Shown here one piece after another: positions 1,872-64,000 of a DNA stretch of 64,000 nucleotides (position 1 is the first letter of the stretch; each line of letters opens with the position of its first letter). Origin of the DNA: Neovahlkampfia damariscottae (lineage: Eukaryota > Heterolobosea > Selenaionea > Neovahlkampfiida > Neovahlkampfiidae); assembly GCA_016618085.1 (NCBI GenBank), contig JABLTG010000048.1:46666-110665 (forward strand), in the 5' to 3' direction. Below the pieces are notes generated by a model. That model searched no databases, was not told the origin of the DNA, and worked only from the letters and a program-made list of their open reading frames with translations. Both the position numbers and the translations under genes were made by a program.

Positions 1872-4800
1872 ATGCATAGAATACCATATTTAATGATGAG
1901 TATGATGAATCGAAGAAGAATACGTGGAATGGATTCAGATAGTGATGATTTTGAAGAGGAAGATGCTCCTGTTTTTAAAAAACAAAAAATTGAAGAAGAA
2001 CCTGAAGAATTAAAAGAATCAAGTTTATTTCCATATTTAAATACGAATGTTATTAGATCATACGCACTACCAAGTAATTTAAAATTTACAAATTAATCAA
2101 ATAGACACTTATAAAATGGGAAAAGAATTAGAAAAAAAAAATCTTGTTACAATGATACAATTAGATGAAACGACATTAAAAGGACTATGCTTTTCAGATG
2201 AATCAAAACAAAGAGAATATTCAATTTCGGTCAAATTTAATGAAGAAGGTTCCATTTCAAAAGTTCAATGTGATTGTATTTTTAAAGAAGGTTTGTTTCA
2301 TCAAAAATTAAAAAAAATATAGTGATGTGGTGTCCTCATACTGTCGCTTCTTTATTGAGCGTTATAAATTTTCCTGATAAAATTATTCAATACTCAAGGT
2401 TACAAACAATAGTTAAAGAAACAACCAAAGAACAATTAGAAACTTTAATGTTGAATAGAATGATTGAAGATGTTAAATTGTTAAAATATATTCATAAAAG
2501 TACAACAGATATGTCCACATTACGTGAAGTTGCTTTAGAAGGTGAAGTTGTAAAAAAAGATGAACCACCATTTGATGTGGAAGCATTTAGAAATAAATTA
2601 ATGGAATCCCTTGATCCTTTAATTCGTTCTCGTAGTGATTTTCATATGTTTTCATCTGATTCAGATTCAGATGATTTTGGAGTAAGAAAAAAATGAACTA
2701 AAAAAAAAAGATGGACTATGGAAATTTATCTCAAGCTTCAAAAATTTTAGAAGAATGTCTTGTGAATGTAGATAATATGTATCACCAAAAATATTATGGA
2801 AATGCTTTAATTACTTTAAAAGAAATTACAGACACAGTTGTAGAGAAGTTTTCAAAAATTCAAAGAGCAGTTACAGTCAAAATAAGTGAATTATGGTTGC
2901 TAATGATGACAAATGAAGAGATCAGTGAAAACATTAGAAAGAAATATATTTCTGACATAAAAAAATATGAATTGTCTTCATTTCCAGTTGACATTTCATA
3001 TAAATTAATTGCAGCAAGAGAATTTGTTGAAACAAATTGGGAAGATGAAGATTTGCAATCAATTTTATCAGGAGAGTACATTGAAGAACCAAGTAAACCT
3101 TTTAAAGAACATTCCATGACTTTAATTACGAGGTTACAACATTTAAAATCAAAAATGAAAGAAAGTGAATGTAAGCTAAAAACAACTCTTTTAACACTGT
3201 TTTAGGTTTGAATTTAATGAATTTTATAGTTTCACGAGAATCCAAACAACAAAATACTGATAAAATGATTACAGTTGCAAAAGAAATACAAAAAATCCAT
3301 CCAGTTGGTGCTTTTATTTTGTACTGTAAAAGACATTATGATATAACCATAAATTATGGTTATAATACGGACACTGTTGATTCTGTTATTTTTACAAATA
3401 TTATTGAATTCAATAAAAAAACTCTGGAACAAAGAAACGCCTCTATACCACCTTTAAGAACAATATGTGCTAAAAAACTAGGAAAGGAATTAATTAAACA
3501 ATATGGAAATGATTGGCCTCAACTTACACAAGTTTATCTTGCTTTAGCTGATGACTTGCAAAGAGAAGTTGCTTTTTCTTTGTACATGGAAATTCTTTTT
3601 GTAAGAGATACAGCAAGTGCAGTTTCAAATTTTAGAAAATTGAAAAGAGAAGGAGAAACAACAGCAAGTTTTGAATATGCATTACATCTCATTCATAGAA
3701 TAACTGATGATTATGATTACTTTCTTGTAAATGAAGTTGGAGGAGTAGCAATAACTCTAGGAAAATTTGCTGTTGACAAATTATTTGAGGCTGTAAAATC
3801 AAAAGTGGTAAAAGTCTCTTGGATTTATGAATTTGCAAAACTGTTTGAAAAACATGAATACAAAGATCATGCTTTTGAACTTGGATTGGAATGCTTAAAA
3901 CAAATCAGAGATTTCAATCACACAAGGTCAATGGAAGAAATACCAGATTGGATTTGTAAATCAGCTGATAATGAAAAAAAAACAAAATTAGTTTTTGATG
4001 CTTTATCAGATAATCCTAGCATTGAATTATTGTTTCTTTTGGGTACAAAATTATCAGAAAAGAAAGAATTTATTGATGATTCCATTAAATTATTAATTAG
4101 TGGTTATGAAAAGAATGATTATTATCTGTATGATGCAAACGAAAAAAGAAATAAAAAATACAAAACAAATTGTAGTTGTGTTGATTGTAAGAAATTAATA
4201 GAACACCTGGATAATTTTGAAAAAGAAATTAGAGTTCAAATGGATAACGCAGATTCAGATCATCTTGAAAAACAATTACAATACTTTCCAAAAGAGTTTA
4301 TTTATCATTTACAAAGATACACTGGAGTTCCTGTCATCATAATCAGAAAAAAAGTATTTTCAAATTCAAATTCTACAGATTATGTTCAAGCAAGGGAATT
4401 ATGCTCAAGGAAAATTCCAGAATTGATTTTATCACTTTTGGAAAAAAGAGATTCAAAACAAAAAAAAGAACATGTTGAAGAAGTGAAAAAATATTTTGTT
4501 GATGCTTCTTCATTATATACTTTGGCTAAATTTTGTGTTAAAAATTCATGGATGGATGAAGCATTAGACCTTAGTTTAGAAGCAGCTAAAGCACCAGGTA
4601 ATTTTGATAGAAATACTCTCAGAAGTATCTTTGGAGTACTTGGAGATGATAAGTATAAATTCAAATTGGCTGACACAATAATGAGAAAAGAACCAAAAGC
4701 AAGTAATTTTCATAAACTCAAAGAATTGGACAATACTGTGAAATTAGATGATTATATTGATATTAGTAAAATTCAAGACCAAACAATTCCAATTCTTTTG

Positions 4801-5301
4801 ATGGAAAGTAAATTTAAAGAAATTGTAGAAGGATACAAATCAAATCAAAATGAAAAGAACAAATATATTCTTACATTATTTAAGGAATGTATTACACAAG
4901 AATTAAAAGCAATAGTTGTCAAAGAACATTTTTATGATATTTTAGTTGATTATTTCATGAATTCTGCTTTTAATGGGTATCATATTGAAATGTATTATAA
5001 TTTCCCAAGAACAATTGGAGATGACATCATTCACTCTATTTTGTATTCAAAAATTGATCAATACATAGAGATCATAGGAGTACCTTTACTCAAAATTAGA
5101 ACAAATTTCTTTATGAATTCAATTTCATCAACAAAACCTGGATCTTATCGTAAATTCGCTGAATGGTTAATGTTTTGTGCAAATTATTTTGATAAAACAT
5201 CAAAAGAGTGGAACGATTTTCAAAATTGTATTCTCAACAATCATGTTGTGAGACCAAAAAAGAAATTAGTTTCATTTATTCAAAATGCATTTTCACTTTA
5301 A
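1872..5301 (+). CDS. SWIM zinc-finger protein with long helical C-terminus
   Basis: Five exons; introns at 2074-2104, 2291-2322, 2682-2710 and 3171-3205 (29-35 nt) each restore the frame. The N-terminus is short and acidic. A SWIM zinc finger spans the second intron: the first pair CDC lies at the end of exon 2 and the second pair, CPH, follows in exon 3 (WCPHTVASLL), giving the CxC...CxH pattern. An acidic serine/aspartate patch (DSDSDSDDFG) precedes ~830 residues of predicted helix, resembling a TPR/HEAT-like solenoid, including one CxCxxC patch near residue 580. SWIM domains bind DNA or proteins; the partner here is unknown. An ATTGGTTGGTC motif sits at 1806-1816, about 55 bp before the ATG. 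The stop lies 11 nt from that of the convergent TsaD-family gene. Confidence 0.75.
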
Positions 5302-5312
5302 TAAACTTTATT

Positions 5313-6567
5313 TCACAGAGTATCAATTGGCCATCTTGGTTTTATATCAATATCGTTGTGATTGATATTTTTTAGAATAGATTGATCATGTTTGTATTTT
5401 TCTATTCCTGCCCAAGCAATCATAATTCCATTATCTGTGCATAATCTTGGTGTAGGTATTTTCAAATTGAATTGATAATTTTCACAAATTTTCTTTAATT
5501 TCTCTCGAAGAAAAACATTTGATGCAACACCACCTGAATGAAAAAATTAGAATTTGTAAATTACCTGAAACTACCAATGTATTGATATCTTTAAATTCTG
5601 ATTTTGAATGTTTGATTGCTTTTTCTGTTTTATTTAATAAATGCGAAATTGCAGCAAATTGAAAAGACGCTGCTAAATTCGATGTTATTTCTTCATCCAA
5701 AAAAGTAGGATTTTTATCATTTTTCACAATACTATTCAACATTTTTCCATCAACATGAATACTTTTTTCTTGATGTTCAATTTGACGTACTAATCTCAAT
5801 AATTGACTTTTTAACCCTGAAAAAGAAAAATTAAAATTATTTTCTTTTTTTAAAGGAATAGTAAACTCATATTGATCTAAATTTCCATTTCTTGCATATG
5901 TTTCAATCATTTTACCTCCTCCTTTTTCAATTGGAAAATTCAATAATCTGGCTGCTTTGTCAAAACATTCACCAACACTATCATCTTGAGTTGATCCCAA
6001 CAAAACATAATTTCCTATTGATTAATTAAATATTATAATACCAATATTTTTGGCTACAGCCAACATACAATGACCTCCTGATACCAATAATGTGAGAAAT
6101 GGAAATTTCAAATCTTGATGTTCCATTCTGGCCAACAACAAATGAGCTTCCAGATGATTTATTGATATTAATGGTTTATTATATTCTAATGATAATTTTT
6201 TTGCTTCTTTCAAACCAACAAGTAAACAAGAACTTAAACCTGGTCCTGTTGTGACAGCAATTGCATCGACATCATTAATATTATTTAATTCACAATTTTC
6301 GAATGATTTATTGATTACATTTTGTAATTCTTTTTCATGTGATTTTGAAGTCTCATGAGGATGAACTCCACCCCATTTTTTAATTAATTCTGAATGAGTC
6401 AAAAGAGCTTCTCCTAGTATTTTTCCTTCTTCATTTACAATTCCAACTCCAGTGTCATCACAACTCGTTTCTATACCCAAAATTTTAATGGAATATTTTT
6501 TGTTGAAGTTCCTCTTCAAAAAATGTTTGGTTGAAATTCGTAAAATCATTGGTAGATTCTCAAACAT
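5313..6567 (-). CDS. OSGEPL1: tRNA N6-threonylcarbamoyladenosine protein, Qri7/OSGEPL1 type
   Basis: TsaD/Kae1/Qri7 family, which transfers the threonylcarbamoyl group to A37 of ANN-decoding tRNAs. Seen: ILGIETSCDDTGVGIV at the N-terminus (typical of Qri7/bacterial TsaD, not cytosolic Kae1), HLEAH metal-binding motif, LLVSGGH, the SVGECFDKAARLL block, FSFSGLK, VVSGGVASN, and TDNGIMIAWAG near the end. Introns at 5534-5564 (31 nt) and 6015-6041 (27 nt) restore the frame. I place the start at the ATG at 6565-6567, giving a short basic, hydroxylated leader that looks like a mitochondrial presequence; the frame stays open to ~6795, so a more upstream start is possible. Mitochondrial location is inferred. 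Confidence 0.87.
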
Positions 6568-51484: not shown

Positions 51485-51566
51485 GGCAGCTTGGTCGAGA
51501 GGTCTAAGACGTAACACTCAAGTTGTTATTCCTTCGGGAGCGTGGGTTCGAACCCCACAGCTGTCA
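51485..51566 (+). tRNA. tRNA-Leu (anticodon CAA)
   Basis: 82 nt with long variable arm. The acceptor 5' strand GGCAGCT (51485-51491) pairs with AGCTGTC (51559-51565, one G-U), discriminator A. The D arm has GGTCGAGAGGTCTAAGAC; the anticodon stem TAACA/TGTTA encloses loop CTCAAGT (anticodon CAA); the variable arm is TTCC-TTC-GGGAG-like; the T arm GTGGG-TTCGAAC-CCCAC is perfect. No intron, no encoded CCA. A T-run about three bases after the 3' end fits a Pol III terminator. Confidence 0.95.
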
Positions 51567-57247: not shown

Positions 57248-59976
57248 TCAAATTTTATTTTCAATATAAATCAAAGAAATTAATAATTCCTTTGAAGTTG
57301 GTCTTTCCTGTGGATTTTTCTTGAAACAACAATTAATGATATTCATTAAATCATCATCAAATTGTTCATTTAATCTTTGTTTTTCCCAAAATTCTTTAAA
57401 TTGAAACTCTTGTTCAATTTGAATTTTCATGTCAAATGATTTTTTTGAAATTAACTCAAGAAAAAAACAACCAATAGACCAAATGTCAATAAAATAATCA
57501 GCCATTGTTTGATTTTCAAATTGTTCATGTGACATGTATTCAATAGTTCCACCCATCATTGGATGCTGGTTTTGTGTTGTGAAACCAAAATCAGCAACTT
57601 TTGTAACACCATCAGATTTGAAAATGTTTGCAGGTTTCAAATCACAATGTACATATTGTAAAGAATGTACATGAATAATTCCTTGAATAGTTTGCTTCAT
57701 TATTGCTAAAATTTGTGTTTTTGTCAATTTCATTTTTTTGAATTTTTTTTTTGACAAATCTCCTTCGTTACAGTATTCAACGATTAATGCATAACAAATA
57801 GTTCCAGATCCATCATCAAATTTGAATGAATCTTTATATGATACAATATAATTATTGCTATTCAATTTTTTGTAAAGTGATATTTCATTTTCAGCATCTT
57901 TTTCACTTCCTTCTTTGAAAACTTTCATTGCATATTTCTCACTAGTTTTTATATCTGAAACTAAATAGATATTCGCACTACAACCAAATCCAATAGTCTT
58001 TTCCACTTTATAAGATTTCTTTTTTTCATTCCCTTTTTCTGATACTCTTGTGTTAAAAAAAATTATTTTGATCTTAACTGATTTCTTCTTTTTCGGAGTC
58101 TTTCAGAGTTAATTTTCTAAAAAATGTGGAAGTATTTAAACTTTTGAACAGATTAAATCCGAATATATTTTTTGATTTCTTTTCTATTTTTGTTGATTTG
58201 GAGAAACTTTTTAATTTTTCAACAATTTCATCTTTATCGTTGGATTGAAATATTGTTGTGAATTTTTGATATTGTGATTGAATTTCTTTTGATAATTTAT
58301 TTTCAATTATTGGTTTTAAATCAAAAAGGAATTCTTTCCATTCTTTAAAAATTTCTTGATTATTGATGAATTTTCTTGAAACTGAGAAACATAAATAATC
58401 AAATGCACAAGAAATCAATAATTCTTTTTGATTGGACTCTTTAATTTGTGATTTCATAAATTCAGTTGATATCAATGGAAGAGATATTTCAGGTTTTACA
58501 ATTTTTTTTTCTTCCATTTTTTCAGATGATCTTTGTCTTCTGAATAGCCCTGTACCTCTTGTTTGTTTTTTTTTTGGTTGAATTTTTCCTTTCTCTTTTG
58601 ATTTTTGATCTGAACTTGGACTCTTTGGAATGAAAATATTTGAATCAACATCAAGAGCAACTTGAGAGATTTTCAATTTATCAGGGAAATCATCAACATC
58701 TTTAGTTTCAACAGAAGATGAACGTGATAAATTACTGAAAATTTCTGATGATTTTTCTTGTTGTAGTTGTTGAATTTGTTGTTGTTGAAGTTGTTGTAGA
58801 TCTTGTGATTTTTGATCCTTCTTCTTTCTTGAATGATACTCAGTAGTTGAACTACTTGATGAATAATCAGATTGATCTTCCATTTCTTCTTCTTCTTTTT
58901 GTTCAATTGTATTAACCAATCCCTTTGATTTAAATGAGAAACCAGAATTCAAATTTTCCATTTCTTCCTTTGGTTCAACTTCTTTTTGATAAGAAAAATC
59001 AAATGACTCTGGTTCACTTGATTTTGATATATCTCTTCCATAATAATCAGAAAAAGATTCAGAATCTGAATCATCATCGGTGATTGTTAATTTGTCTTTC
59101 AAATCATTGGCTGTTGGTCTGTTTGTGACAGATTCATCAATACAATCCAAAATATAACTAAGCTCATAAACACCCTTATATTCATCTTCAATAATTGATT
59201 TCAAATCATCAATTTCATCGATATCCTAATTTCAAAAATTAAATTTTAGTTCCTTACTGTCACTCCCATTAATTTTAACATTAAAATTCCTAATGCATAA
59301 ACATCAGATAAATGTGTGAATTTATCATCTGTATATACTTCAGGAGCAATATATTCTTCATTTTCAGTTAACAGGTCAATTACATTTTCAAAACCAAACC
59401 CAAATTTAGAAAGCTTTACATTACTCTTTTTATCAATTAAAACACTTGATAATTGAATATTACTATGAGTAATATTATGATCAGCAAGAATAGATAAAGC
59501 ATGTAAAATTTGATTAAACCATTTTGAAATCATCTGTTGAAGAAAAAAGTAAAATAAAAAATGTTCATTTTTACCTCTGCTGGAATTTTTTGTTGTTTTA
59601 ATTTTGTTTCATAAAAATAACTTTCTAATGTTTGATAAGGTGTATAAGTTGAAGCTTTTGTTGTCAAGTAATAACTTCTAATTAATTGGTCATTTTTTAT
59701 TTTGATAAATAAATCTTCGTGTTTCAAAATACTATCATCTTTAAGTTCTATTACTTTTAAGAAATTATTTTCAATCATTTTATGATGTTCTTCTTTTTCA
59801 GTATGAATGTCATAAACAAAGAAAATTGTTTCTTTTGAAGATTTTATATTTTTTGATTTTTCAACTCGAATATAACTTGTTCTTTCAATAGGAGTGATTT
59901 GAGGGTATAAATCTACCAAAGTTTGATAACTTTTTGGATTCTCCACTTTCTTTGGTGTAGTTGGTTTTCTTTTCAT
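57248..59976 (-). CDS. Tandem pseudokinase-kinase protein with Q/S-rich linker
   Basis: Four exons; introns at ~59533-59575, ~59225-59257 and 58045-58078. Together ~870 residues. The N-terminal domain is a pseudokinase: ITHSNIQLSSVLI where HRDLxxxN belongs and SKFGFG for DFG, with IAPEVY kept. A long acidic, serine- and glutamine-rich linker follows. The C-terminal kinase has GFGCSANIYLV, YAMKVF, HCDLKPAN (arginine of HRD changed to cysteine), ADFGFT and GTIEYMSHEQF; it is probably active. The second domain could be taken for a separate gene, but no ATG precedes its glycine loop in frame and the 34-nt intron (GTTAAG...ACAAGAG, TTTTTAAC branch) joins the two exactly. The stop is 10 nt from the convergent monooxygenase stop. 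Confidence 0.75.
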
Positions 59977-60090: not shown

Positions 60091-61484
60091 AAAAATTCTT
60101 TGAGTTTCTTTTTGTCAACCGATGGTTTGGTTACTTCTTTTCAATAATGAACATGTTAACATCAGGTACAAATTACATACTACCTATCATATCAGTTGAT
60201 CTCAGAATAATCACTGGATTTTCAATTGTTGAAGCAAATTTAATTTCTTCATTTTCACTTTTTGGTTCGTAAGTAAAATTTTGAATTAAAAATCAGACTT
60301 TTAGGTATATTAACTGGATTTTATTATGATCAATTTGGTCCACGATTTACTTCATTATTAGTTTCTTTAAATTTTTTTAACACCAACAAAAGACTTCAGT
60401 TCTATTTATTGCACCATATACGCTCATGCAATTAACACTAAGAGGATATTTATATAAAAATGCTATTCTTTTTGCTATTTTTAATTTAATAGCCGGTGTA
60501 GCCGGACAAGCACAAATTGTAACAACAACTGGAACAAATGCTAAAAATTTTCCACCTGAAAGAAAAGGTTTAGTCGTTGGAACATTAATGCTAATTTATG
60601 GTGTTGGTGGTGCTTTATTATCACCATTGTATTCTTTATTTGAAGGACCTGAAAAGGTGGCAAACTATCTGACCATTTATGGTTTGATTGGATGTGCGTT
60701 TCCAATTCTTAATTTTGCATTTTTACCAGCAAAACCAATAAAAAAGAATGGTTTTCAAGTTAAAAATCAAGATATTGGACCATTTAGGATGTTATTCACT
60801 TTAAGATTTTATCTTGGATTTTTTATTTGGGGAATAACCACAGGATGTTGTAAGAATTTATTAAAACTTTTGAACGTTTTAAAAGCATTAACTTTTTTGA
60901 ATAATTTAGGAGAAATCATCATTTCAGTGAACAGTCCCGAAGAAGCAACCACATATCTATTTTTGATTTTATTGATATCAAACTGTATTGGAAGAGTTTT
61001 ATTTGGATTTTTATCAGATTTAGTTAGAAAGTGGATCAGCAATCCATTTTTGATGGCTTTCATTTCTTTAGGTTTGACTTCAGTTTCCATTTTTACTGCT
61101 TTCTCAAATTACCAAATGCTTTATGCATCAACAATTGTTTTTGGAATATTCTTCGGAGGATCTATGGTAATTGGACCGACATTACCACTTGATTTATTTG
61201 GTCCTACATATTATGGAACAAACTTGGCTGTAATATTTCTTGGAGTTGCTGGAACTAATATTTCAATGTCAACAGTATTCAGTTTGATTTATGAATACGA
61301 AACTCCTGTTGGTGCATTGAAATGTAAATTAGGATATCAATGCTTTTATTTGAGTTTTCTCATTATGGCAGGACTTTGTTTCATTTCGTTTCTATTTTCA
61401 ATTTTGTTAGGATTTTCAACATTGAATTTGTATTATAAAAAAGAAGAGAATAAATTTACCCTTGATATCAATTCAGAAGAATAA
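60087..61484 (+). CDS. MFS transporter, nodulin-like (NFD) type
   Basis: Plasma- or vacuolar-membrane carrier of ~433 residues with about 12 predicted helices. Four exons: introns near 60269-60296, 60361-60392 and, within an apparently open frame, 60850-60885 (36 nt). MFS motif A-like loop: YYDQFGPRFTSLL. Further helices: LIAGVAGQAQIVTTTGTNAKNF, PPERKGLVVGTLMLIYGVGGAL, and after splicing GCSLTFLNNLGEIIIS, the NNLGQI-like block of the nodulin-like / NFD subfamily; then RVLFGFLSDLVR and SMVIGPTLPLDLFGPTYYGTNL. Substrate unknown (family members are linked to carboxylates, iron or hormones). The start codon is embedded in CCAATCATGG. Confidence 0.82.
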
Positions 61485-61565
61485 TGGTTGATTTTCATGT
61501 TCATCGGATTGTGCTAATTTGTAATTTTGGGGAATAAAGTTTTTAGACAAATGAGAACAAAAGTT

Positions 61566-62384
61566 TTATCTGTTCAATAAAATTCCAAGTAATGAAACAT
61601 ACATATCTCCTGTAATTCCTTTAGTTGCAGAAATTGGATAAATATCAACAATCAAATTTCTAGTTCCTGAAATTACTGAATTTGGTATTGTAATTTTAGC
61701 CAATGGTGTTCGTAATGTTGTATCAAGAATATCATATTGACTGTTAACAAAAGCAGCATTTGGTGTCATCACAGCAATTGGAATTCCTTGTTTGTAAATC
61801 CCAAATGATGAAGAAAAACTTGTTCTTTCAAATTTATAGACCTCAGATTTTGTTGCACATTGATAAGTTCTGTAAGTTGTAAAAAATGAAAAAATATCTT
61901 TTTTAATTGATAAACTTTCTAATCCTCCAGCTGATAAAATGTCAGTGATTCTTTGTAAAAAGACTGAAAAAAAACGTGAATTTTGTTTTTTTTTACCAAA
62001 TCTTCTGTTTCTGATATTACCTACAACTGTTGAGTTTTGAGAAACAGAAACAGTTCCGTCAAGTATATTGGTGAGTTTTGTTTCTAATCTTCCTGATTTA
62101 GGAAAATTTACAAAAACACAACCTGGAGGACGAAAAATGAAGGAAAACAATCCTTTTCAAAATTAATTTTGACTATTTTCTTTACCATTCATAGCAATTG
62201 CGATCACAAAAATAAAAGCAAAAATCATTGTGCACAAAAAAAAATAAAACCAAAAGTTATTTGCGCATGAAAAAAAATTGGATGATTTTTTCTTGTGTAG
62301 TTGTTGTACACCTGGAACATTACCTTCAAGATCTACATTTTGATTTGGAATTTGTGAGTAAGGTGTTGTTGAATTCTCCATCAA
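61566..62384 (-). CDS. Single-pass membrane protein of unknown function
   Basis: Three exons, ~245 residues. Introns at ~62111-62161 (51 nt) and 61964-61996 (33 nt, stop-free). An N-terminal polar segment with a proline/serine patch is followed by one membrane helix (NFWFYFFLCTMIFAFIFVIAIAM), then a beta-rich C-terminal domain with CVFVNFPKSGRLETKLTNILDG, YRTYQCATKSEVYKFERTSF and SQYDILDTTLRTPLAKITI. The strand pattern vaguely recalls the LURP/tubby-like C-terminal fold of membrane-attached proteins, but the similarity is too weak to name. The start is MMENS at 62384 (or its second ATG); ATTGG is 17 bp upstream. Confidence 0.6.
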
Positions 62385-62903
62385 AAAATAAAGTTATTTG
62401 ATTGGACAATTTTTCAAACAAGAATTTTATTCTAATTTCTCAATTTCTGATTTGGAGAATGCCAAATTTCTTTCAAAATTCGTAATTCATCCCATTTATC
62501 TCGTGCTTTTATTCATTTTTTTCTCATTAAAACATTTTGGAATATATCGCTTTGTGAATCAAAGTTTCCAAACTTTATCTTTTGTTGAGATCTCTTTCAA
62601 AAATACGTTTGAGTAGATTTCTCACATTATTTTGTTCTATTCTTCATTTCTGTATTTCAAGCTTTTTTAAGCTAGATTTTAAAATCATTGCTCCCTTGAA
62701 GTGTTTTTGACTTTTTTCTTTGTTTTTTTGAAATTTAACTGAATTGGAGTATTTGATTTTTCCGTTGTAAAGTGACCATTGGGAATCATTTATGAACTAT
62801 ATATGGATTTTTTAAATTCCAAAAAATTACAAAAGGATGGAAAAAGTAGAAAAGACACCAAGTAAATAAAGAAAACTGGTTGATGAACAAAAATGATTAA
62901 TCC
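62385..62903. other. Intergenic; probable left flank of the IS607 element
   Basis: 519 bp. ATTGG at 62401-62405 belongs to the preceding minus-strand gene. A 72-codon frame at 62398-62616 has no family signal and is not called. The left end of the IS607-type element should lie in the last ~100 bp; IS607 elements have no inverted repeats or target duplication, so it cannot be placed by eye. Confidence 0.4.
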
Positions 62904-63598
62904 AGTGAAAAGTATATCACCAGTAAAAAAGTTAGAGAACAGTACGGTGTTTGCAATTCAACATTCAAGCGATGGGCAAATGAAGGAAAAATCAGTAGTA
63001 TTCGAACACTTGGGAACAAAAGACTCTATGGATGTGATGACATTAGAAGAGTCTTTGGAGTTGAAAGTATTGAAAAGAAAAAGAGAAAGTTATGTTATGC
63101 CAGAGTCAGTAGTCAAAAACAAAAAGGAGACCTCGAAAGACAAGTGAAAGACAAGTGAAAGACCTCCAAAGAGAATATCCAGATCATGAAATCATCCAAG
63201 ACATTGGAAGTGGTGTCAACTTCGAAAGGAAAGGATTTAAAACCTTGGTGGACCAAATCATGTCTGGAAATATCGAAGAACTTGTCATTAGTCATTGAGA
63301 CCGACTTGTTAGATTTGGATATGCACTTCTCGAACAAATATGCTAAAAGTTTGAGTGCAAAATCGTGGTTCAACATAAAGATGTCAACTCCGATCCAACC
63401 AACGATCTTGCCGAAGACTTATTATCCATCGTTACACTATTTACCGCCAAACATCATGGACTCAGAGCAGGAGAAAAGAAAAGGAAAAGAAAAGAAGCAG
63501 AAACCATTGAAGGTAACAAAAAAAGTAAAATTGGAGAGAGAAGAAGTGAAGAAGGTGGCAGCAGACAAATGCAAGAAGATACGACTTTATCCAAATGA
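62904..63598 (+). pseudogene. tnpA: IS607 serine recombinase (TnpA), inactivated
   Basis: The frame from 62904 reads YITSKKVREQYGVCNSTFKR, then WANEGKI, a helix-turn-helix that binds element ends, GNKRLYGCDDIRRVF, and the catalytic serine motif LCYARVSSQKQKGDLERQV; further on comes DRLVRFG and HGLRAGEKK near the end. Lesions: no ATG in frame before the domain (TAA just upstream); an 11-bp tandem duplication (63140-63150 repeated at 63151-63161) that shifts the frame; an in-frame TGA at 63296-63298 in the conserved SHxDRL segment; and TAA at 63344-63346. The serine recombinase would have moved the element through a serine-linked intermediate; this copy cannot do so. Confidence 0.88.
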
Positions 63599-64000
63599 AA
63601 ATGAAAGAAAAAAATTGAATCAATGGATGGGATGTGCTAGGTGGACTTATAATCAATGTCTCAATGGTGTAAACAAAGAAAATATTGGAAAATCAAAAAA
63701 GGAATTGAGAAATTATTGTTTAAAAAGTACATCAGAAATTATCCAAAACAATGCATGGACTTCAAATATACCATATGACATCCGAGATGAGGCAATGTTT
63801 GATCTTCTCAAAGCTTTTAAAACTTGTTTCTCTGTTGGTGAAAAATTTAAAATAAAATACAAAAGAAAAAAAGATAATACCGATAGTATTGTAATTCATT
63901 TGAAACATTTCAATGCTGCAAGAAAGAGAGAATTGAAAGAACAATTATCAAAAGCAAAAGCAAAACAAAAGGAGAAAAAAGAATCATTTTACGATTTTAT
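63456..64000 (+). CDS. Fanzor/TnpB-family RNA-guided nuclease, N-terminal part
   Basis: Open from the ATG at 63456-63458 to the window end (181 codons, no stop), overlapping the tnpA 3' end by 143 bp. A lysine-rich leader is followed by the TnpB N-terminal helical block: CKKIRLYPNENERKKLNQWM, then GCARWTYNQCLNGV, a signature shared with IS607 TnpB of giant viruses and amoebae (the Fanzor2 group). Then WTSNIPYDIRDEAMFDLLKA, where TnpB proteins have the conserved AxxDLxxA helix, and FKIKYKRKK. TnpB/Fanzor proteins are programmable RNA-guided DNA endonucleases using an RNA from the element's 3' end; the RuvC catalytic residues and zinc ribbon lie beyond the window. Intact as far as it can be seen, unlike its partner recombinase. 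Confidence 0.85.
   Translation, partial: MDSEQEKRKGKEKKQKPLKVTKKVKLEREEVKKVAADKCKKIRLYPNENERKKLNQWMGCARWTYNQCLNGVNKENIGKSKKELRNYCLKSTSEIIQNNAWTSNIPYDIRDEAMFDLLKAFKTCFSVGEKFKIKYKRKKDNTDSIVIHLKHFNAARKRELKEQLSKAKAKQKEKKESFYDF

Follow-up and report, generated by a model that had tools for sequence, protein, structure and literature searches.

A decayed IS607/Fanzor2 element in Neovahlkampfia damariscottae and an apparently dual-coded N-terminal domain in its nuclease lineage

The window, a stretch of 64,000 nucleotides at the end of a Neovahlkampfia damariscottae contig, closes with the left part of a transposable element. We conclude that this is, very probably, a dead IS607/Fanzor2 copy of a multi-copy element, in whose lineage the N-terminal domain of the nuclease is dual-coded over the serine recombinase gene and was born by overprinting. 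The element itself is a further member of a family already described; the surprise lies in the putative dual-coded N-terminal domain.

Results

A decayed copy at the contig end

The preliminary description of the window had reported a nuclease frame with the GCARWTYNQCL signature overlapping a serine recombinase pseudogene, and had named the pair a eukaryotic IS607/Fanzor element. These readings hold. The nuclease frame carries an HTH_OrfB_IS605 domain (Table 1), the recombinase survives as pieces interrupted by stops and a frameshift that match HTH_17 at E=2.5e-5 and Resolvase at E=2.2e-4, each just short of the Pfam cut-off, and the element is multi-copy, has a Fanzor2-type nuclease and lies among host genes. 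Its left edge lies at 62740 (core TG at 62740-62741) rather than at 62904.

Table 1. Features of the element copy in the window (window positions).
Feature	Position	Strand	Basis
Left 1,261 bases of the IS607/Fanzor2 element, the rest cut by the contig end	62740..64000	+	28 genome matches, 25 aligned left ends, full-length relative L022
Left junction: flank AC, then core TG	62738..62741	+	Aligned left ends (n=25)
Recombinase start codon and early stop at codon 6	62883..62900	+	Stop at 62898-62900
Recombinase remnant, piece 1: helix-turn-helix of MerR type, then the beginning of the resolvase domain	62901..63158	+	ORF, Pfam
Recombinase remnant, piece 2: resolvase domain, register changed past an 11-base extra copy, closed by a stop	63113..63298	+	ORF, Pfam
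Recombinase remnant, piece 3: basic-tailed C-terminal part	63347..63598	+	ORF; aligned to L022
N-terminal piece of the nuclease (Fanzor) frame, +1 relative to the recombinase; contains a KRKR motif and ends in a stop	62893..63147	+	
Nuclease (Fanzor) frame, open up to the contig end: remaining N-terminal part and start of core	63159..63998	+	ORF, Pfam
PWW...SWF N-terminal domain in the nuclease frame, over the recombinase catalytic region	63243..63371	+	Domain and dual-coding tests on relatives and host copies
Lysine/arginine-rich tract in both frames, a possible nuclear signal	63470..63539	+	Sequence only
HTH_OrfB_IS605, start of nuclease core	63576..63665	+	Pfam PF12323, E=1.6e-10

Alignment to a full-length relative (L022) shows that an 11-base extra copy at 63135-63145 throws the recombinase frame out of register; that frame is also stopped after five codons, at 63298 and before 63347, and its third piece (63347-63598) taken alone has no Pfam match. 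In the nuclease frame, a stop at 63147 ends one open stretch and the next starts at 63159. Judged by these lesions, the recombinase of this copy is dead and its full-length nuclease frame is broken. Because the contig ends exactly at the window end (110,665), the copy stops inside the element and cannot be extended rightwards; the missing right part was taken from L022 (contig C3), which differs from the window copy by 8-14%.

Ordinary host sequence lies to the left of the element (61484-62740). Further left are an MFS transporter gene (60381-61484), a protein kinase (57248-58102) and a tRNA-Leu (51485-51566). Another protein of the window, of saccharopine-dehydrogenase type, has an unlabelled metagenome match at 85% identity, and the first named organism listed for it is Planoprotostelium fungivorum at 39%.

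A multi-copy element with IS607-type ends

In the genome searched (20.4 Mb, 307 contigs), sequence of the element's left part is present on 28 contigs, 27 of them with the left end (C156 begins inside the element), and the right part matches 24 contigs, 23 with the right end. The counts of 27 left and 23 right ends are lower bounds. The contig runs out inside the element in 25 of the 27 left-end contigs, C3 and C272 being the exceptions, and since the assembly breaks in this repeat the youngest copies may be unassembled.

The core TG is present at all 25 left ends aligned (C192 and C20 were left out) and at all 23 right ends, with differing flanks. The left TG is preceded by C in 24 of 25 copies, and that C by A in 20 of 25. 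One insertion splits a sirtuin-like gene, named from a reading of its protein sequence, with the left half on C303 (L021) and the right half on C53 (L063); the reconstructed empty site, composed of left flank, TG and right flank, reads in frame. Going by these junctions, the insertion is of the IS607 type, with a TG core, no inverted repeats and no target duplication.

A full-length relative with the Fanzor fingerprint

In the one full-length copy, L022 (contig C3, 2804-4914; 2,111 bases), the recombinase frame is intact and a single stop interrupts the nuclease frame. Its recombinase is identified as an IS607-type serine recombinase by NF033518 (176.7 bits, cut-off 110), and its nuclease core matches NF040570 (116.8 bits, cut-off 100). 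A protein search with the nuclease gave matches down to E=1.4e-197. Among solved structures the best relative is "TnpB-like protein L79" (9b0l; E=1e-16 over the core), which we take to be a mimivirus protein and whose N-terminal ~130 residues did not align with the N-terminal domain described below.

The RuvC and zinc-ribbon residues that the preliminary description had proposed to look for beyond the contig end are all present in L022. RuvC-I reads IDPGVRTF, with D, P and G invariant across 15 aligned relatives; the window copy ends upstream of this motif. An alternative glutamate stands shortly before the zinc ribbon (VTEEYTSKTCGKCG), and in a related nuclease (P0001) the residue aligned with the canonical glutamate of 8h1j is a proline. 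The C4 zinc ribbon, of the form CxxC...CxxC, and the terminal DRD follow (CGKCG...CPSC...DRDLNAARN; PF07282, E=2.2e-17). DPG, alternative glutamate and zinc ribbon form the Fanzor fingerprint in the available part of PMC10711439. The L022 nuclease matches this published fingerprint, and RNA-guided DNA cleavage is predicted for it.

Among the relatives, three viral contigs with phage-like neighbours (L066, L068 and L072) lack the zinc-ribbon cysteines of the nuclease (TSKT[LV]SW.G), although the remainder of its C-terminus is retained.

Layout of the overlap

In L022 the nuclease frame is +1 to the recombinase and is open from upstream of the recombinase start to one stop near the recombinase end; relatives from the protein search have the same N-terminal extension. 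In viral and bacterial loci the shift is always +1 where the recombinase and a nuclease of this clade overlap by more than 200 nt, and in two fragmentary loci (L135 and L138) it is 2, with overlaps of 34 and 85 nt. From stop to stop the overlap has a median of 567 nt (365-714; 57 loci); measured from the last possible start before the motif, the median is 329 nt (51 loci). The motif in question, P[FWY]W...SWF, marks an N-terminal domain of the nuclease frame that is uncovered by Pfam, PHROGs and PADLOC in the proteins scanned, with weak PHROGs matches (E 0.04-0.08) brushing N-terminal residues. The two-frame overlap had been seen in the preliminary description, and its look of a conserved dual-coded domain had been missed.

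The loci taken from genome_contigs were the best 80 of 448, ranked by a query that includes the N-terminal part, so this sample favours the overlap pattern. A recombinase-only set, for which 30 matches were fetched, came from genomes picked through those same best 80 of 448 loci.

Two loci deserve mention for their arrangement. In Vibrio phage F95 (L189, 1443-3120) the recombinase frame ends early (1763), PFW...SWF is kept in the nuclease frame, and RuvC-I reads DVG in place of DPG. In Candidatus Paraprochloron terpiosi (L085), two different such elements stand head to tail (2800-4485 and 4516-6126).

The +1 frame is conserved beyond the recombinase

Stops are rare in the +1 frame of the clade recombinases. 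In 60 bacterial and phage loci there are 55 in 10,908 +1 codons and 721 in +2, and in 14 non-clade IS607 recombinases there are 218 (+1) and 198 (+2) in 2,663 codons. For this comparison, as for that of third positions below, identical stretches were dropped, loci fitting neither assignment rule (including L022 and L132) were set aside, and L163, L112 and L121, with a split nuclease frame, were placed in the clade by hand; L163 is itself without overlap. In the recombinase-profile set of 30 loci, the 15 beside a Fanzor-like nuclease have 0-3 stops each and 14 others have 4-25, L184 being unscored.

Synonymous shuffling of the recombinases gave the same picture. For 56 overlaps it predicts 205.6 stops and 0 are seen (all p<0.05, 38 with p<0.01), the zero being partly by construction because each stretch was cut to the open frame; for the 14 non-clade recombinases it predicts 200.7 and 218 are seen. 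This grouping comprised 56 clade loci including L022, 6 other and 14 non-clade, duplicates of one stretch being skipped.

In the clade, recombinase third positions, which coincide with nuclease second positions, evolve slowly. The measure is 0.281 vs 0.523 in controls at 10-20% protein divergence and 0.457 vs 0.641 at 30-40%, with 2, 2 and 6 control pairs in the three lowest divergence bins. At 50-60% divergence the ratio of third to first position is alike in clade and controls (1.22 and 1.21).

After thinning to 45 clade and 13 control loci, identity in the +1 frame is 0.315 vs 0.237 (sd 0.0016) after synonymous shuffling in the clade, and 0.210 vs 0.202 (sd 0.0032) in the controls. All 45 clade loci have the same W at one +1 position. 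In prokaryotes the signal starts in alignment columns 60-99 and is strong over the catalytic region; it is absent from columns 0-59 and 140-159. The +1 frame is conserved beyond what recombinase sequence and codon use would impose.

The domain in proteins without an encodable recombinase

A profile was built from the +1 translations of the 60 bacterial and phage loci and run, at E<1e-3 with a set size of 120, on 64 N-termini of proteins found with the L022 nuclease. It matches 43 of them and none of 128 controls made by reversal or shuffling; the remaining 21 N-termini gave no match to it. The 64 were those of the 120 proteins with an N-terminus of more than 40 residues, a rule that missed some proteins that have one (e.g. 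P0003 and P0008).

Whether such an N-terminus could also encode a recombinase was scored by a profile upper bound, a protein motif expression having proved too strict. On this scale 34 of 59 N-termini score about 80-110 and 25 score below 18. Nine of these 25, unable to encode a recombinase, still match the domain, including P0085 from Naegleria lovaniensis, and the other 16 have no domain-profile match. Three of the nine (P0030, P0111 and P0120) have intermediate encodability scores and may be remnants. The nine matches indicate that some lineages, at least, retain the domain at the protein level in the absence of the recombinase.

Across the overlap (L022 3151-3480), six host copies vary at 14, 2 and 18 of 110 sites at recombinase positions 1, 2 and 3; in the core alone, variable sites at nuclease positions are 31/231, 16/231 and 58/230. 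This variation fits constraint on both frames, on small counts. Upstream of the overlap, 7, 7 and 20 of 68 sites vary, and this part looks constrained as recombinase only.

These results bear directly on a rival account, in which the long +1 frame is a by-product of recombinase protein, codon use and base composition and the nuclease starts at its core. Recombinase constraint alone does yield the shuffled +1 identity of 0.237, and the public annotation of one cyanobacterial plasmid begins the nuclease at the core. Yet shuffles that keep the protein and codon set fall short of the observed identity, the 14 other IS607 recombinases have no such pattern, and the domain outlives the recombinase in proteins such as P0085. 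Already disfavoured, a frame open by chance or as a by-product is rejected here as highly improbable. A conserved N-terminal domain that extends from phages and cyanobacteria to eukaryotic Fanzor2, and is apparently dual-coded, is well supported by sequence.

Possible expression of two products

Of 23 aligned host copies, 22 retain the recombinase ATG and 21 retain the nuclease ATG, which lies 10 nt downstream. Position -3 is C or T at the recombinase ATG and A at the nuclease ATG. With two start codons 10 nt apart, leaky scanning could yield both proteins and is the likely route of expression. The +1 frame might instead be translated as a recombinase-nuclease fusion through a +1 ribosomal shift, a reading that would suit the fixed +1 register seen wherever the recombinase overlaps a clade nuclease by more than 200 nt. 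It is nevertheless very unlikely, given the separate nuclease ATG in 21 of 23 host copies and the strong +1 conservation over the catalytic region, which a shift downstream of that region would not need.

The nuclease frame has a KRKR motif and a basic linker, and the recombinase frame has a basic tail; these basic motifs look like nuclear signals. In those domain-bearing proteins without a recombinase that were read, basic motifs lie upstream of the domain.

Placement of the nuclease and origin of the element

In a quick tree of 120 of the 127 rows remaining after thinning 147, the proteins with DPG and the alternative glutamate make up a single group (109 rows, SH-aLRT 100) that includes bacterial/phage (26 rows), cyanobacterial (30) and eukaryote-type (53, SH-aLRT 99) branches. 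The host element falls in the eukaryote-type branch together with Naegleria P0085, Diversispora P0112 and, on a long branch, the viral contig L154; this branch consists mostly of unlabelled metagenome proteins, and one member, P0011, is labelled as a bacterial MAG.

P0011 (nuclease) and P0248 (recombinase) bear a Flavisolibacter MAG label, with a longest contig of 2,199 bases for both, and resemble the host element (51% and 63%). Their source is possibly a eukaryotic contaminant contig.

The preliminary description had suggested lateral entry from a giant virus or a bacterium. IS607 elements with Fanzor2 do occur in giant viruses, according to the available part of PMC3627910, L154 sits in the eukaryote-type branch, and the GC content of the element is 0.33 vs 0.27 in the remaining window. 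As a recent event, however, such entry lacks support because the nuclease lies inside the eukaryote-type clade; moreover, six host copies differ pairwise by 1-12%, and no close relative was found in viral_contigs, single-protein searching included, or among the best 80 of 448 genome_contigs loci. A chimeric contig, the other way in which the element might be foreign, is unlikely because the 25 left ends read (of at least 27) lie in 25 different host flanks and one copy sits inside the sirtuin-like gene. Recent entry and chimera, rejected on these grounds, together strike us as highly improbable; the position of L154 leaves an older exchange with viruses open.

The 3' end and a candidate guide RNA

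The last 150 nt of L022 fold at -48.1 kcal/mol vs a shuffle mean of -28.4 (z=-5.67, 0/200). In an alignment of 20 of the 23 right ends (A3; L053, L055 and L064 left out), 14 of them distinct, four pairs of helix 1, within the last codons of the nuclease, show changes at both partners. Counted across the entire structure, such double changes occupy 16 cells vs 4.9 in shuffles. Two of five covariation measures are not above shuffles (pairs with such changes, 4 vs 3.3; further pair types, 14 vs 13.5), and the right-end changes track one main split between subfamilies. A scan of the 3' end with Rfam gave none above a gathering score. A helix between ACCCA.CU and the terminal AG.UGGGU resembles the loop-to-end pairing in the available part of PMC10711439. 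The 3' end of the element folds like an omega RNA and is a candidate guide.

Discussion

Proposed mechanism

Following published work on IS607 and TnpB, the recombinase would excise the element as a double-stranded circle and insert it at (A)CTG. A serine recombinase would cross over at the dinucleotide, which fits the TG ends, the single TG of the empty target and the lack of duplication. The nuclease would bind an omega RNA from the last ~150 nt of the element, with the right flank as guide, and would cut empty (A)CTG sites, whose repair would restore the element.

In the lineage with DPG and the alternative glutamate, the +1 nuclease frame across the recombinase catalytic region very probably encodes the N-terminal domain, a reading that the computations support, so that one DNA stretch would yield two proteins. 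The domain would have been born by overprinting and freed later where the recombinase was lost. Overprinting is the most likely direction because the recombinase belongs to an older and wider family and the other TnpBs examined are without the domain. For the fuller history we hold it probable that the domain of Fanzor2 and pro-Fanzors was overprinted in the recombinase +1 frame before the eukaryote-type branch arose, which bound nuclease and recombinase to a single DNA stretch, that it became free-standing later in Fanzor2-type proteins without the recombinase, a Naegleria protein included, and that eukaryotic forms gained basic tracts that may serve nuclear targeting.

Relation to known systems

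Fanzor2 nucleases in IS607-like elements, as covered by the available parts of PMC3627910, PMC10432273 and PMC10711439, have in common with the host element the DPG, the alternative glutamate, the zinc ribbon and the IS607 recombinase, as well as ends without inverted repeats or duplication and, as a candidate in the host element, an RNA from the 3' end. A dual-coded N-terminal domain is not described in these parts of the three papers, and the terms "overlap", "N-terminal", "reading frame" and "overprint" are absent from the main text of PMC10711439. The available part of PMC3627910 calls Fanzor2 N-termini highly variable, and that of PMC10432273 notes N-terminal extensions. In the open-licence literature on overlap and overprinting in Fanzor and TnpB we found no report of dual coding; an earlier description elsewhere is possible.

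The pro-Fanzors, cyanobacterial IS607 TnpBs treated in the available part of PMC10711439, have the same RuvC fingerprint as the host element, and the cyanobacterial loci analysed here have the same +1 overlap and domain. Pro-Fanzors form a separate branch of the tree (30 rows) from the host nuclease, and the core dinucleotide is GG in the tested IS607 of that source vs TG in the host element. Other IS607 elements likewise combine a serine recombinase with TnpB (PMC6188088, PMC9956272, in part); the available text of PMC6188088 states that the two IS607 ORFs "often overlap", and that of PMC9956272 describes one overlapping IS607 type. The 14 non-clade IS607 recombinases analysed here, with 4-25 +1 stops each, have no long second frame.

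The Trichormus variabilis plasmid NC_007410.1 (L187, 1546-3282) illustrates how such a locus can be recorded. Its gene table starts the nuclease at 2074, at the core, although the reading frame that carries P-Y-W...S-W-F already runs open at 1546, and the overlapping recombinase frame (1677-2132) is absent from the public table, which may be an annotation gap.

Significance

Fanzors are under development for genome editing, and the present reading bears on where their extra N-terminal part came from. If that part is dual-coded, annotations and constructs that start at the core drop a conserved domain, as in the public record of the Trichormus plasmid. One frameshift would break both genes, as in the window copy, which would give the nuclease and the recombinase a reason for staying together. 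If the reading is true, overprinting created a protein domain in this lineage that later escaped the overlap, an example open to tests at the level of single residues.
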